From Streptomyces clavuligerus (lineage in GTDB: Bacteria > Actinomycetota > Actinomycetes > Streptomycetales > Streptomycetaceae), in NCBI RefSeq assembly GCF_005519465.1, contig NZ_CP027858.1, positions 5,084,001 through 5,148,000 on the forward strand: a DNA stretch of 64,000 nt, in the 5' to 3' direction. The translations under genes and the position numbers were made by a program. Position 1 is the first letter of the stretch, and each line of letters begins with the position of its first letter. Below the pieces are notes generated by a model that was not told the DNA's origin, did no database searches, and saw only the letters and a program-made list of their open reading frames with translations. This document shows, one piece after another, positions 58,293 to 64,000 of the stretch.

Positions 58293-59321
58293 ATGCGCGT
58301 CGGAGTACTGACCGGGGGCGGCGACTGCCCCGGCCTCAACGCCGTCATCCGGGGTGCCGTCCGCAAGGGCGTCCAGGAGTACGGGTACGAGTTCATCGGC
58401 TACCGCGACGGCTGGCGCGGCCCGCTGGAGGGCGACACCCTCCCGCTGGCCATCCCCAACGTCCGGGGCATCCTGCCCCGCGGCGGCACCATCCTCGGCT
58501 CCTCCCGGACCAACCCCCTCAAGAGCCGGGACGGCGTCCGCCGGATCAAGGACAACCTGGCCAAGGCCGAGGTCGACGCGTTGATCGTGATCGGCGGCGA
58601 GGACACCCTCGGGGTCGCCGCCGAACTCCACGGCTCCTACGGGGTCAACTGCGTCGGCGTCCCGAAGACCATCGACAACGACCTCTCCGCGACCGACTAC
58701 ACCTTCGGCTTCGACACCGCCGTCTCCATCGCCACCGAGGCCATCGACCGTCTCCACACCACCGCCGAGTCGCACATGCGCGTCCTGGTGGTGGAGGTCA
58801 TGGGCCGGCACGCGGGCTGGATCGCGCTCCACTCCGGGCTCGCGGGCGGCGCGAACGTCATCCTCATCCCTGAGCAGCGCTTCGACATCGACCAGGTGTG
58901 CTCCTGGGTGACCTCGCGGTTCCAGGCCAGCTACGCCCCGATCGTGGTGATCGCCGAGGGCGCGATGCCGAAGGACGGCGAGGCGGTGCTCAAGGACGGG
59001 ACGAAGGACTCCTTCGGCCATGTCCGGCTCTCCGGCGTCGGCGAGTGGCTGGCCAAGGAGATCGAGGCACGCACCGGGAAGGAGGCCCGTACGACCGTCC
59101 TCGGCCATGTGCAGCGCGGCGGCACGCCGACCGCGTTCGACCGCTGGCTCGCCACCCGCTTCGGGCTGCACGCCATCGACGCGGTGCGGGAGGGCGACTT
59201 CGGCGCGATGGTCTCGCTCAGAGGGACCGATGTGGTCCGGGTACCGATCGCCGAGGCCACCGCCCGGCTGAAGACCGTCGACCCCGGGCTCTACCGTGAG
59301 GTCGGCGTCTTCTTCGGCTGA
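58293..59321 (+). CDS. pfkA: 6-phosphofructokinase
   Basis: 342 residues, group III PFK. LTGGGDCPGLNAVIRG, GSSRTNP, IGGEDTLGVA, PKTIDNDL (catalytic Asp), VEVMGRHAGWIA and GHVQRGGTPTAFDRW. Converts fructose 6-phosphate to fructose 1,6-bisphosphate. Residue 104 is Asp and residue 125 is Lys, the pair usually seen in PPi-dependent enzymes, although the S. coelicolor enzyme is reported, as I recall, to use ATP. GGAAGG precedes ATG 58293. Confidence 0.94.
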   Translation: MRVGVLTGGGDCPGLNAVIRGAVRKGVQEYGYEFIGYRDGWRGPLEGDTLPLAIPNVRGILPRGGTILGSSRTNPLKSRDGVRRIKDNLAKAEVDALIVIGGEDTLGVAAELHGSYGVNCVGVPKTIDNDLSATDYTFGFDTAVSIATEAIDRLHTTAESHMRVLVVEVMGRHAGWIALHSGLAGGANVILIPEQRFDIDQVCSWVTSRFQASYAPIVVIAEGAMPKDGEAVLKDGTKDSFGHVRLSGVGEWLAKEIEARTGKEARTTVLGHVQRGGTPTAFDRWLATRFGLHAIDAVREGDFGAMVSLRGTDVVRVPIAEATARLKTVDPGLYREVGVFFG

Positions 59322-59334
59322 GACACCCGCCGCC

Positions 59335-60190
59335 CACGGGCCTCCCGGCCGAGGCCCCGACGGACCTCTGGCCTCCGGGCCCTGGCTTCGGGTCTCCAGG
59401 TCTCCAGGCCACCGGTGCCCGGGCCTTCGGGACTTTCGGCCTCGGGCTTTTGTTCACCGGGCCTTCGGTCTCCGGGTCTCTGGGCCACCGGCCTCTGACC
59501 TTCGGGTACCCGGCTTTCGGCCACCGGCCTTCGGGTTCCCGGTCCCCGGGCCTTCAAGGTTCCGGCCACCGGTCCCCGAGCCTCTGGCCTCCGGGTACCC
59601 GGCTTCCGGTCATCGGGCCTCCGGCCTCTGGCTTCCGGTCTCCGGGCCTTTCGGCTTCCCGGCCTCGGGCTTTTGTTCACCGGGCCTTCGGTCTCCGGGG
59701 CTCTGAGCCACCGGCCTCTGACCTTCGGGTGTGCCCGGCTTTCGTCGGCCACCTGTCTCCGAGCCTCTGGCTTCCGGCCCTTCGGCCTCTGGGCCACCGG
59801 CCACCGGGTCTCTGGCGTTCGGGTGCCCGGTCCCTGGTCATCGGGCTTCCGGCCTCCGGGTGTCCGGCTTCCGGTCTCCGAGCCTCTGGCTCCCGGGCCC
59901 TCGGTCTCCGGGCCTCCGGATCATCGGCCGCTGGCCTCCGAGCTTTCGGCTTCCGGGTCTCCGGGCCACCGGCCCCGGCCACCGGTCTCCGGGTTTCCGG
60001 TGCCCGGGCCTTCGGGACTTTCGGCCTCCGGCTCCCCGGCCCCCCGGCCTCCGGGTCTCCCGGTCATCGGGCCTCTGGACTTGGCCTCTGGCCTCCGGTC
60101 TCGGGGCCACCGGACACAGGGCCCCGAGCACCGAGCACCGAGCATTCGGGTCTCCCAGACCCCCGGTGGCCTCCGATCGCGCCGTGATCG
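59335..60190. repeat. Degenerate minisatellite-like region
   Basis: About 850 bp of short variants of GGCCTTCGGGTCTCCGGGCC and CCACCGGCCTCTG, with an irregular period of roughly 15-25 bp. One long sub-repeat is nearly duplicated: 59440-59525 and 59663-59755 (offset 223, both containing GGGCTTTTGTTCACCGGGCC). All six frames stay largely open but read as low-complexity RRPEARG-type strings. I treat it as non-coding. The rest to 60431 is plain G+C-rich spacer with no gene. Confidence 0.8.
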
Positions 60191-60431
60191 TCCCCTGACC
60201 GGCCGACGGCCGGCCCCGACCGGCCTCAGCTCCGGCCGGAGCGCCCCGCGGCAGGTGGCGACCTGCCGCGCCCCCCCCGCGATCCCGCGGTGATCCCACC
60301 GCGCCGCGCCGCGCCGTCCCGCGGCACACGGTCCGACCGGCCGGTCGAACGCCGCCCCCGCCCCGCAGAGCGAGGGCCCGCCCGACCGGCCGCGCCACGC
60401 GCGCCGCCGCGTCGCCCCGTACCGGCGCTCC

Positions 60432-62378
60432 TCAGACCCGGGGCAGTACCGACCCGGACAGCAGCCCCGCGACCAGCCGGGGACCGTCCAGGGTGAGCAC
60501 CGACTCCGGGTGGAACTGCACCGAGGCGACATGCGCCGCCCGCAGCGCGTGGACCTCGCCCAGGGCCGGATCGCGGGCCACCTCCACCCCGCGCCCCGCG
60601 AGCCGCCGCGCCGCCGCGTCGTCGCAGCGCGCCGTGAAGCTGTTGTAGAAGCCCACCGTCTCCGCCCGGCCGAACAGCTCGATCCGCTCCTGCGCCCCCT
60701 GGTGGGGCACCCGCTTGCGGACCAGCGGCAGCCCCAGTTCGGCCGCGATCAGCTCATGGCCGAGACAGACCCCCAGCACCCCGTGCCGATGGCCGCGCAG
60801 CAGCTCGGCCGTGAGCCCCCGCAGCAGCCGCATCTTCGGATCTCCCGCCTCGCAGGGGTCGCCGGGGCCGGGCCCCAGCACCACCGGACCGGGGTGCTCC
60901 AGCGCCGCCTCCCGCAGCCCCGGCTCGTCGTACCGGCGGACACTCACTTCGAGCCCCGTCGAGCGCAGCAGATGCGCCAGCATCGCGGTGAAGGTGTCCT
61001 CCGCGTCGATCATCAGCGCCCGGGCGTGCGGCGGCGCCGCGAGCGGCTCCCGCAGCCGCAGCCAGAACGGAGCCAGCGAGGCCCTGCGCCCCTCCAGCGC
61101 GGCCCGCACCCGGGGGTCGTCCGCGAGCCGCACCGGCTCGGCCCGCCGCGCCGGGCGTCCGGGGACCACGCCCAGGGCCGCCAGCACGGCCGCCGCCTTG
61201 GCGTGGGTCTCGGCGACCTCGCCCGCCGGGTCGGAGTGCCGGACGAGCGTCGCCCCCACCGGCACCCGTACCCCGCCGGAGGGGTCGATGTCGGCGGTAC
61301 GGATCAGAATCGGCGAGTCCAGCCGCTGCCCGCCGTCCGCGTCCCGCTCGATCAGCGCCAGCGCGCCCGCGTAGTAGCCGCGTCCGCCCGTCTCGTGGCG
61401 CTCGATGACCCGGCAGGCGTTCTGCACCGGCGAGCCGGTGACGGTGGCCGCGAACATCGTCTCCCGCAGCACCTCCCGGACATCGAGCGAGGTACGGCCG
61501 CGCAGCTCGTACTCGGTGTGCGCGAGGTGGGCCATCTCCTTGAGCCGGGGCCCGACCACGACCCCGCCCCGGTCGCCGACCGTGCACATCATCTTCAGTT
61601 CCTCGTCCACCACCATCGACAGCTCGTCCCGCTCCTTGGGGTCGTCGAGGAAGCGCAGCAGCGACTCGGCGTCCGGGCCGCCGGGCGGATAGCGGAAGGT
61701 GCCGCTGATCGGGTTCATCACCACCGTGCCGCCGCTCATCCGCACATGCACCTCGGGGCTCGCGCCCACCAGCGTGCGCTCGCCCGTGTGCACCACGAAG
61801 GTCCAGTACGCCCCCCGTTCCCCCGCGAGCAGCCGCCGGAACAGGGCCAGCGCGTCCGCCCGTCCGAAGCCGTCGATCCGGCCGGTGAAGGTGCGGCGGA
61901 TGACGAAGTTGGCCCCCTCGCCCCGGCCGATCTCCTCCGTGATCACCCGTCGGACGATCTCCGCGTACTCCTCGTCGGGCACGTCGAAGGCGCCGTCCGC
62001 CACCCGCACCGGGTGTGCGGGCAGGGCGTCGAGCACATCGGCGAGCGGCAGCGCGGCGGACTCCTCGGCGAGCAGCGCGCTCAGCGGGGTCCCGTCGTCG
62101 CGGACCTGGAAGCCCCGCTCCCGGATCTGCCGGAACGGGACGAGGGCGAGCACGGGGGTGTCGCGGACGGGCAGCCCGGCGAGGGTCCCGTAGGTGTGGA
62201 CCGGCCCGGTCAGCAGGTCGACGGTGTCGGCGGCGCCCGGGGCGCGGCCCGGGGTGCGGCGGTGCAGCAGGGCGAAGGGGCGGTCGTCCGCGAGCAGCCG
62301 CGCGACGGCGGCAGCCGCGTCGGGGGCGGCGCCTTCGGAGGCGGTGGTCGTGGCGGCGGTGGTGCCTGGGTCGGACAT
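60432..62378 (-). CDS. Anthranilate synthase, fused TrpE-TrpG
   Basis: 648 residues. Residues 1-430: chorismate-binding component (GEGANFVIRRTF, NPISGTFRYPPGG, DEELKMMCTVGDRGG, MFAATVTGSPVQNACRVIE). Residues 445-648: glutamine amidotransferase (GPGPGDPCE, catalytic Cys in GVCLGHELIAAELG, His-Glu in QFHPESVLT). Makes anthranilate, the first step of Trp synthesis, in one chain. ATG 62378 with GAAGGA upstream. It is preceded by a Trp-codon leader peptide and an attenuator, so it is regulated by tryptophan. Confidence 0.94.
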   Translation of the reverse strand: MSDPGTTAATTTASEGAAPDAAAAVARLLADDRPFALLHRRTPGRAPGAADTVDLLTGPVHTYGTLAGLPVRDTPVLALVPFRQIRERGFQVRDDGTPLSALLAEESAALPLADVLDALPAHPVRVADGAFDVPDEEYAEIVRRVITEEIGRGEGANFVIRRTFTGRIDGFGRADALALFRRLLAGERGAYWTFVVHTGERTLVGASPEVHVRMSGGTVVMNPISGTFRYPPGGPDAESLLRFLDDPKERDELSMVVDEELKMMCTVGDRGGVVVGPRLKEMAHLAHTEYELRGRTSLDVREVLRETMFAATVTGSPVQNACRVIERHETGGRGYYAGALALIERDADGGQRLDSPILIRTADIDPSGGVRVPVGATLVRHSDPAGEVAETHAKAAAVLAALGVVPGRPARRAEPVRLADDPRVRAALEGRRASLAPFWLRLREPLAAPPHARALMIDAEDTFTAMLAHLLRSTGLEVSVRRYDEPGLREAALEHPGPVVLGPGPGDPCEAGDPKMRLLRGLTAELLRGHRHGVLGVCLGHELIAAELGLPLVRKRVPHQGAQERIELFGRAETVGFYNSFTARCDDAAARRLAGRGVEVARDPALGEVHALRAAHVASVQFHPESVLTLDGPRLVAGLLSGSVLPRV

Positions 62379-62449
62379 CCGGTGGGTTCCTTCCGGTCGT
62401 TCCGGTGACGGGGAGCGAAGAAGCCCCGAGGGGAACGGCCGGGTGTCCC

Positions 62450-62485
62450 GGGAAAACACTGAAGGCCGCCCCCTGGGCGGCCTTC
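62450..62485 (-). terminator. trp attenuator terminator
   Basis: On the minus strand: 11-bp perfect stem (62485-62475 and 62471-62461), three-base loop, then AGTGTTTTCCC, a T-rich tail unusual in this window. It lies between the leader peptide and trpEG. The 5' arm (GGCCGCC part) can instead pair with GGCGGCC at 62520-62514 inside the leader ORF, which gives the antiterminator. Confidence 0.85.
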
Positions 62486-62507
62486 GCGAGTCGTGTGCGC
62501 GTTCGGA

Positions 62508-62579
62508 TCAGCGGGCCGCCGGATGTGCGGTCCACCACCAGTCCTGGTTCAGCTGCTGCTGACTCCCGAGCGCGAACAT
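62508..62579 (-). CDS. trpL: trp leader peptide (three consecutive Trp codons)
   Basis: 23 residues, MFALGSQQQLNQDWWWTAHP and then AAR; Trp codons 14-16 are at 62540-62532. Stalling there leaves GGCGGCC (62520-62514) free to form the antiterminator; finishing at the stop (62510-62508) covers it and lets the terminator fold. TAGGGT (complement of 62587-62592) is seven bases before the ATG, so the transcript probably starts at the A of the start codon. Confidence 0.9.
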   Translation of the reverse strand: MFALGSQQQLNQDWWWTAHPAAR

Positions 62580-62710
62580 GCGGCGAACCCTACCGCAGCG
62601 GCCGACTCCGCCACGCCGTCACGCTGCGGGAACGCGGGATCACGGGGTGGCGTGTCTCACGTGGTGGGCGGCTCACGGGGCACCCGCCGTGACCCCGTAC
62701 TGTTGACGGT
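62580..62710. promoter_or_regulatory. Divergent trpL-trpEG / aroH promoter region
   Basis: 131 bases. Minus-strand -10 TAGGGT (complement of 62587-62592) serves trpL; plus-strand -10 TACTGT (62698-62703) serves the DAHP synthase. Both sit seven bases from their start codons. No strong -35 is visible for either. Confidence 0.6.
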
Positions 62711-64000
62711 GTGACCGTGAACGCTAAGACCACCGCTACCGGTGGCAACACCTGGCGAGACCTTCCCGCGGCGCAGCAGCCCGAGTACCCCGATGCCGAG
62801 GCTCTGCGCGATGTGATCGCGGACCTCGAATCGTATCCGCCGCTCGTCTTCGCGGGCGAGTGCGACCAGCTGCGCGCCCGGATGGGAGCCGTCGCCAGAG
62901 GCGAGGCGTTCCTGCTCCAGGGCGGAGACTGCGCCGAGTCCTTCGACGCGGTCGGGGCCGACGACATCCGGGCCAAGCTCAAGACCCTGCTCCAGATGGG
63001 GGCGGTGCTCACCTACGCCGCCTCCGTGCCCGTCGTCAAGGTCGGCCGTATCGCCGGTCAGTACTCGAAGCCGCGCTCCAAGCCGACCGAGACGCGCGAC
63101 GGCGTGACCCTGCCCACCTACCGCGGCGACTCGGTGAACGGTTTCGCGTTCACCGAGGAGGCCCGCATCCCGGACCCGCAGCGGCTGAAGCGGATGTACA
63201 ACGCGTCCGCGGCCACGCTCAACCTGGTCCGCGCCTTCACCACCGGCGGCTACGCCGACCTGCGCCAGGTGCACGCCTGGAACCAGGACTTCGTGAAGTC
63301 GTCGCCCTCCGGCCAGCGCTACGAGCAGCTCGCCCGCGAGATCGACAACGCGCTGAACTTCATGGAGGCGTGCGGCACCGACCCGGCGGAGTTCCGCACG
63401 GTCGAGTTCTTCGCCTCCCACGAGGCGCTGCTGCTCGACTACGAGTCGGCGCTGACCCGGGTCGACTCCCGCACCGGTCATCTCTACGACGTCTCCGGCC
63501 ACATGGTCTGGATCGGCGAGCGCACCCGGCAGCTCGACGGGGCACACATCGAGTTCGCCTCGAAGATCCGCAACCCGATCGGGATCAAGCTCGGCCCCAC
63601 GACCACCGTGGACGAGGCCCTGACCTACATCGACCGGCTGGACCCGGAGCGCGAGCCCGGCCGGCTGACCTTCATCGTCCGGATGGGCGCCGACAAGGTT
63701 CGCGACAAGCTCCCCGAGCTGGTAGAGAAGGTCACCGCCTCCGGTGCCACCGTGGCCTGGGTCACCGACCCGATGCACGGCAACACCTTCGAGGCGGCGT
63801 CCGGCCACAAGACCCGGCGTTTCGACGACGTCCTGGACGAGGTCAAGGGCTTCTTCGAGGTGCACAAGGCGCTCGGCACCCACCCCGGCGGCATCCATGT
63901 CGAGCTGACCGGCGACGACGTCACCGAGTGCGTGGGCGGCGGCGACGAGATCTTCGTCGACGATCTGCACCAGCGCTACGAGACCGCCTGTGACCCGCGG
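62711..64000 (+). CDS. aroH: Class II 3-deoxy-D-arabino-heptulosonate 7-phosphate synthase (3' end outside window)
   Basis: 430 codons present; the reading frame is open at the window edge (last residues ETACDPR), so about 20 residues are probably missing. Plant-type class II DAHP synthase: LLQGGDCAESFD, VGRIAGQYSKPRSKPTE, PTYRGDSVNGF, ASHEALLLDYE, KIRNPIGIKLGPTT, WVTDPMHGNT and GGIHVELTGDDVTEC. Joins PEP and erythrose 4-phosphate at the head of the shikimate pathway. GTG 62711 lies seven bases after TACTGT, favouring a leaderless start; GTG 62717 is an alternative. Divergent from trpL-trpEG. Confidence 0.96.
   Translation, partial: MTVNAKTTATGGNTWRDLPAAQQPEYPDAEALRDVIADLESYPPLVFAGECDQLRARMGAVARGEAFLLQGGDCAESFDAVGADDIRAKLKTLLQMGAVLTYAASVPVVKVGRIAGQYSKPRSKPTETRDGVTLPTYRGDSVNGFAFTEEARIPDPQRLKRMYNASAATLNLVRAFTTGGYADLRQVHAWNQDFVKSSPSGQRYEQLAREIDNALNFMEACGTDPAEFRTVEFFASHEALLLDYESALTRVDSRTGHLYDVSGHMVWIGERTRQLDGAHIEFASKIRNPIGIKLGPTTTVDEALTYIDRLDPEREPGRLTFIVRMGADKVRDKLPELVEKVTASGATVAWVTDPMHGNTFEAASGHKTRRFDDVLDEVKGFFEVHKALGTHPGGIHVELTGDDVTECVGGGDEIFVDDLHQRYETACDPR

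Follow-up and report, generated by a model that had tools for sequence, protein, structure and literature searches.

The fused anthranilate synthase gene trpEG of Streptomyces clavuligerus is, with a probability we put at about 0.88, preceded by a leaderless, ribosome-mediated tryptophan attenuator of the Streptomyces lividans trpL1 kind, through which plentiful tryptophan probably switches the gene off. Here we establish the anatomy of this element in a 64,000-nucleotide stretch of the genome (the window), its conservation among relatives, and the covariation of two of its parts, the lower terminator stem and a long-range helix that we call P1. Neither attenuation nor leaderlessness is new, because attenuation in S. 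venezuelae and the leaderless TrpL1 of S. lividans have already been published, and the attenuator itself is one more example in a known set; the comparison turns its leaderless layout from a single-strain observation into a conserved trait. P1, in which, as the comparison suggests, the opening bases of the RNA pair back to a region close to where the leader message ends, is possibly an undescribed part of this known kind of attenuator, and it raises a testable general question: do attenuators on leaderless RNAs time-gate the loading of 70S ribosomes?

Anatomy of the trpEG leader

The leader lies on the minus strand between trpEG and a divergent gene for a class II DAHP synthase, which starts at 62711. 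Direct reading of the sequence confirmed the parts named in the original prediction, that is, a 23-codon open reading frame (ORF) with three adjacent Trp codons, a -10 element exactly 7 nt from its ATG, and a GGCGGCC segment able to pair with a competing GGCCGCC. The terminator was borne out in its exact 11-bp stem, whereas its tail, predicted to be T-rich, is only moderately so. The features are as follows:

62587–62592, minus strand: -10 element TAGGGT, exactly 7 nt before the leader ATG (from sequence)
62579, minus strand: predicted +1 of the leader, the A of the ATG
62508–62579, minus strand: trpL leader ORF of 23 codons, MFALGSQQQLNQDWWWTAHPAAR and a stop; ATG at 62579–62577, stop codon at 62510–62508
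62566–62578, minus strand: 5' arm of P1, leader nt 2–14 (from structure and covariation)
62532–62540, minus strand: run of three Trp codons (UGG UGG UGG), where the ribosome presumably stalls
62510–62536, minus strand: 1:2 hairpin, RNA nt 44–70, Trp codons against the antiterminator segment (from MFE and RNAalifold)
62514–62520, minus strand: segment 2, GGCGGCC, 5' arm of the antiterminator; position kept in relatives
62494–62506, minus strand: 3' arm of P1, the linker beyond the stop codon, RNA nt 74–86 (from structure and covariation)
62476–62482, minus strand: segment 3, GGCCGCC, 3' arm of the antiterminator, also within the 5' arm of the terminator
62461–62485, minus strand: intrinsic terminator hairpin, perfect 11 bp with a 3-nt loop; its lower stem covaries
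62453–62460, minus strand: terminator tail, AGTGTTTT (from sequence)
60432–62378, minus strand: trpEG, 648 aa from the ATG at 62378, a Chorismate_bind and GATase fusion

The MFE structure of the window leader holds the 1:2 hairpin, the terminator and P1, and the leader taken as a whole is more stable than shuffled sequences (z = -2.60); its 5' domain alone (z = -0.88) and its terminator region alone (z = -0.85) are not better than most shuffles. An intrinsic terminator is present by sequence between the leader and trpEG, with termination itself predicted. The antiterminator is mutually exclusive with it. When nt 1–52 were held unpaired, mimicking a ribosome at the first Trp codon, RNA 1–105 formed the antiterminator from segments 2 and 3; under the same constraint the complete leader RNA still preferred the terminator, so antitermination would depend on timing. 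RNAalifold, run on 39 leaders of equal layout (alignment A2), drew both the 1:2 hairpin and the terminator unprompted, and 98.7% of cells of the 1:2 hairpin are paired in that alignment. The lower terminator stem served as the positive control in a tree-based test, with 7 same-branch compensatory changes against 1.40 under the null.

In the working of the switch that we infer for the S. clavuligerus strain, RNA polymerase would start at or beside the A of the leader ATG, and with such a start the ribosome would load directly onto a 5'-terminal AUG; leaderlessness would thereby make 70S initiation at that AUG part of the sensor, as originally suggested. With Trp-tRNA scarce, the ribosome would stall at the UGG codons and the 1:2 hairpin could not form; segments 2 and 3 would then pair, letting transcription run into trpEG. 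With tryptophan plentiful, a ribosome at the stop codon would cover segment 2 and the terminator would form. The Escherichia coli trp leader is built alike, with its Trp codons within hairpin 1:2, an antiterminator 2:3 and a terminator 3:4. Unlike the window leader, E. coli trpL carries a Shine–Dalgarno (SD) sequence in a 5' UTR, and it is not known to form a helix between its 5' end and the linker that follows its stop codon.

The trpEG protein scores over the gathering score for both Pfam PF00425 (chorismate-binding) and PF00117 (class I glutamine amidotransferase). Among the best 25 of 41 NCBIfam matches, no model passes its cut-off, the top one, NF010081, reaching 184.3 bits against a cut-off of 645; the name trpEG therefore follows from the domain fusion and from what the S. 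lividans gene that comes after the same leader is called. Two further chorismate-binding proteins are encoded in the genome, and for a 320-aa piece of one of these the TrpE models score best. We count this separate TrpE-type protein elsewhere against our best explanation, and the role of trpEG in tryptophan synthesis is putative. Rfam gave the leader no family match at E <= 1, and the sole Rfam match in 60000–64000 is a weak one to a miRNA, away from the leader.

Two observations concern the neighbourhood. The divergent DAHP synthase gene (plus strand, 62698–62713) itself looks leaderless, with TACTGT 7 nt from a GTG at 62711. A DAHP synthase match was present at 93 of the 124 loci compared below; it is divergent in 93/93, and in 93/93 a TANNNT stands 6–7 nt from a start codon whose offset from the expected one is between -25 and +11 codons. 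Farther along, at about 59300–60500 between pfkA and trpEG, long low-complexity repetitive ORFs run in several frames on both strands, and this stretch resembles tandem-repeat DNA.

Conservation of the leaderless layout

We compared the leader among relatives drawn from several searches. In the genus, 60 of the 61 genomes searched (its own among them) gave a match, and 57 orthologous upstream regions (L001–L057) were chosen from it by rank; the four genomes left out held weak matches (G001 and G008, E about 1e-19), distant copies only (G028) or none (G050). The family search covered 121 genomes, with a match at E <= 1e-150 in 117, and contributed 67 further upstream regions (L071–L137), bringing the total to 124. 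A set of named loci comprises the best 80 of 568 relatives, 72 of the 80 being not identical to the 124. Finally, 13 paralogous loci at 55–59% protein identity were taken as the top-ranked of a longer list.

The layout is conserved throughout the orthologous regions. By script, at least two Trp codons together with a TANNNT 6–7 nt from the start codon were found in 123 of the 124, with a spacing of 7 nt in 107 and 6 nt in 16, a start codon that is ATG in 107 and GTG in 16, and a Trp run of WWW in 118 and WW in 5. Reading the 124th leader, L136, confirmed its spacing, so that TANNNT stands at 6–7 nt in 124/124. L136 is a natural variant (at 500–1074 of that locus) in which Cys-Trp-Arg replaces WWW and in which TAGGGT, the 7-nt spacing, the ATG and the terminator are kept. 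Because the first script had required a -10, we also ran a search blind to it, for TGGTGG followed by GGCCGCC; this recovered 123/124 leaders (L136 was missed), each with a start codon 6–7 nt from a TANNNT, and in three of the 123 an alternative spacing is also present. Among the named loci, for which the search required TANNNT at 5–8 nt, the leader occurs in 80/80, with spacings of 7 nt in 62, 6 nt in 17 and 5 nt in one, L164, where a start too far upstream had been picked. The L164 record, titled Microtetraspora glauca, carries a Streptomyces-like trpL-trpEG locus and is possibly mislabelled.

Within the leader, 7 to 16 codons precede the first Trp codon (8 in 83/123). The first GGCGGCC begins 20 nt past the start of the first Trp codon in 96/123 leaders and 17–21 nt past it in 115/123, and these 115 are spread over all three frames, counted from the Trp codons (100, 12 and 3), so it appears to be the RNA rather than the peptide that is kept. 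Conservation in orthologues, and the transcription start published for the S. lividans leader of that name (PMC8079986), support the original claims of Trp-codon attenuation of trpEG and of a leaderless leader peptide.

Such a leader was found in 0/13 of the paralogous loci examined, two of which (L062 and L070) have other ORFs with WW, without such a -10. Five family loci at 59–61% identity (L098, L099, L103, L123 and L124) do carry it, so orthologues and paralogues divide according to gene copy, and identity alone does not tell them apart. The leader had no match in a distant plasmid search.

Taken singly, the parts of the leader are not all rare. In the window, perfect 11-bp stems occur in 17 registers on the plus strand, and TGGTGGTGG occurs 3 times with the two strands counted. 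A TANNNT lies 6–7 nt upstream of 9 of the 3250 ATG or GTG triplets on the two strands (0.28%), or of 5 of 998 when ATG alone is counted, and the leader is the window's only ORF of at most 40 aa that combines WW with such a -10. The leader exceeds chance through the combination of its features and their conservation, not through single parts.

These counts bear on two alternatives to the leaderless attenuator. That the same attenuator sits on a leadered transcript, with TAGGGT incidental and the start farther upstream, is very improbable: TANNNT is indeed a weak motif, yet its presence at 6–7 nt in every leader contrasts with the 0.28% of start triplets in the window, S. lividans TrpL1 is reported to be leaderless (PMC8079986), and an SD-like word stands upstream in just 1/123 leaders, for which we rejected it. 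Equally hard to credit is codon-independent or Rho-dependent regulation in which the Trp codons are not the sensor, a reading that has a precedent in the S. coelicolor ilvB leader, where candidate regulatory codons were changed and regulation was unaffected (PMC1262725), but that meets at least two adjacent Trp codons in 123/124 leaders, an intrinsic terminator, and a description of the S. venezuelae control as tryptophan-dependent (as cited in PMC4833913).

A candidate helix between the 5' end and the linker

P1 is a candidate helix joining the 5' end of the leader RNA to the linker. In the window MFE it pairs nt 2–4 with 84–86, nt 6–9 with 79–82 and nt 11–14 with 74–77, so that it encloses the Trp-codon hairpin. 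It is thus nested with the 1:2 hairpin, fits the terminator state in the same way, and crosses the antiterminator. For comparison among leaders we took nt 3–10 as its core and counted pairs with a linker octamer anchored to the consensus GCGCGTAC. All 8 pairs form in 23 of the 124 leaders, 7 in 77, 6 in 13, 5 in 9 and 4 in 2; the window itself has 6/8, placing it among the 24/124 with at most 6. The last base of the start codon is paired in 115/124, and P1 (at least 4 pairs) is part of the single-sequence MFE of 98/124. In the named loci the core forms 8/8 pairs in 6, 7/8 in 63, 6 in 8, 5 in one and 2 in two. Of the last two, L164 is the locus with the wrong start and L206, whose leader begins MLYASQIQNWWW, has one extra codon, which would shift the P1 arm 3 nt from the start codon.

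We tentatively propose, at somewhat short of even odds, that P1 acts as a load-or-lock gate in actinobacterial leaderless trp attenuators, in which the first bases of the RNA, some of them in the start codon, are paired with the linker where the leader ORF ends or just beyond. With no ribosome loaded, nt 3–10 (in the family) or nt 2–14 (in the window) would pair with the linker around the 1:2 hairpin; P1 closed in this way would partly tie up the start codon and leave the terminator as the default. Being nested with the terminator as well as the 1:2 hairpin, crossing the antiterminator and pairing a base of the start codon, P1 fits a default-off state that hinders loading. A 70S ribosome would then have to load before the linker is synthesized (RNA nt 74–86 in the window), or else P1 and the 1:2 hairpin would close and the terminator would form. 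If the gate is real, the switch would read ribosome availability for leaderless mRNA besides charged tRNA-Trp.

A real P1 might serve RNA stability instead, by shielding either the terminated leader RNA or the 5' end, or might be a pause signal, which we consider possible but rather doubtful. That P1, the 1:2 hairpin and the terminator together make up the predicted ribosome-free fold of the window leader speaks for such a role; the pairing of the start codon's last base and the crossing of the antiterminator fit a gate and speak against it, neither being decisive.

Distinctly unlikely is that the signal is not a helix at all, codons 2–4 being kept for the peptide (MFA or MYA) or for leaderless initiation and the linker being kept otherwise, both of them CGCG-rich. 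CGCG is self-complementary and chance pairing is accordingly high. The tree-based test followed a phylogeny of DAHP synthase and covered the 93 loci with a match to it (31 of the 124 left out); 0.863 of P1 cells are paired there against a null of 0.80, and both sides changed on the same branch with pairing kept 8 times, against 0.83–0.84 expected; these values were reached by 0/400 and 0/300 simulations. By this measure the covariation of P1 is roughly on a par with that of the lower terminator stem. The two arms of one leader also match each other better (6.51) than do arms exchanged among the 53 distinct combinations (5.88, sd 0.09), a comparison that ignores relatedness. Some rows of A1, the MAFFT alignment of the full set of 124 leaders, have the linker octamer out of place; we therefore based our P1 counts on the anchored octamer, the 93-locus tree and the 39-row subset A2, in which rows share an equal layout (49 leaders have it; near-duplicates were dropped). 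On A2, RNAalifold drew 5/8 of the P1 pairs unprompted, 86.5% of P1 cells are paired, four pairs have changes on both sides, and 0–1 of 500 shuffles scored as high.

Other points bear on this alternative from both sides. The octamer lies after the stop codon in 99/123 leaders and overlaps or precedes the stop codon in 24/123. Pair 5-6' forms in just 49/124, its failures being mostly U-U or U-C, and the window's own 5' domain, as noted, folds no better than most shuffles. On A2, a register slid by -2 nearly equals P1 in covariation score (0.102 against 0.103), with 71.8% of cells paired against 86.5% and one pair changed on both sides. Slid registers were not paired above the null in the tree-based test, for which we rejected them; we keep as caveats the -2 slide and the register at nt 4–11, which has 5 double changes (reached by 5/300 simulations) and is 13% paired. 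Outside the family, P1 appears as GTACGCGA:TCGCGTAC, a pairing that again argues for a helix. A pairing of the linker with the stretch before the terminator was also tried and rejected, with no signal in two registers.

Known attenuators and matches elsewhere

The closest described system is the leaderless TrpL1 of S. lividans TK24 (MFAHSTRNWWWTAHPAAH), which has a Rho-independent terminator, with two hairpins and a U-rich stretch ahead of a monocistronic trpE (PMC8079986). It shares with the window leader the leaderless transcript, a WWW leader peptide ending TAHPAA(H/R), the Rho-independent terminator and a monocistronic anthranilate synthase gene downstream; the window peptide differs in having five more codons ahead of the Trp run, and we found no mention of P1 in what we consulted of the account of TrpL1 in PMC8079986. 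The original prediction named neither P1 nor the earlier publication of a leaderless leader of this sort. Four of the named loci (L144, L155, L159 and L190), all with a relative of the window's trpEG, encode exactly the S. lividans TrpL1 peptide. The report of attenuation at the S. venezuelae anthranilate synthase gene to which the original prediction refers does exist: attenuation of trpEG was published by Lin, Paradkar and Vining in 1998, as cited in PMC1262725 and PMC4833913, and these describe a Trp attenuator of the same kind of gene in the same genus.

Classical trp attenuators were predicted in Corynebacterium and Streptomyces by Seliverstov in 2005 (PMC1262725), and the window leader shares with them double or triple UGG repeats, GC-rich terminators and gGCC-rGCy-GGCC complementary triples. 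According to its legend, the alignment in figure 1 of that paper begins at the Trp codons and stops at the terminator, which leaves out the 5' end. For S. clavuligerus, 150 premature transcription units have been reported (PMC8269248). Leaderless attenuating leaders have been reported, proposed or reviewed in other actinobacteria (PMC4633059, PMC5784534, PMC9031893). Among these, the mycobacterial cysteine uORFs, described as regulating translation of downstream genes through attenuation (PMC9031893), and the Corynebacterium diphtheriae ilvB leader share with the window leader a short leaderless ORF in which the regulated amino acid is abundant and which precedes related genes, and differ in the amino acids concerned. 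We found no description of a helix joining the trpL 5' end to the linker in a literature search that was incomplete and did not extend to the original S. venezuelae study, and we do not claim its absence from print.

To look beyond the family, we built a covariance model, P1 included, from the 39 leaders of equal layout. Run against the genome of the window, it recovered the window site (E 4e-10); at E <= 0.1 it matched 50 of the 197 genomes searched from the class, of which 16 belong to the genus itself and 34 lie outside the family. We read the best match in 14 of these 34, comparing the leaders rather than the genes downstream, and found a WW leader with TANNNT at 6–7 nt in 14/14. P1 is in the same register in 10/14, shifted in 3/14 and absent in 1/14, in a sample that is biased towards P1 because the model includes it.

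The model also gave two weaker matches in its own genome. One (E 0.33) coincides with the window site but reads along the other strand. The other (E 0.17; L219, contig C1, 3960396–3960487) lies before trpS, where the leader MTTRMCSLQWWPA, ended by a stop codon, has the TANNNT element TACGCT 7 nt upstream. Its predicted helix joins nt about 11–20 to the linker and begins at about nt 11, not at the start codon.
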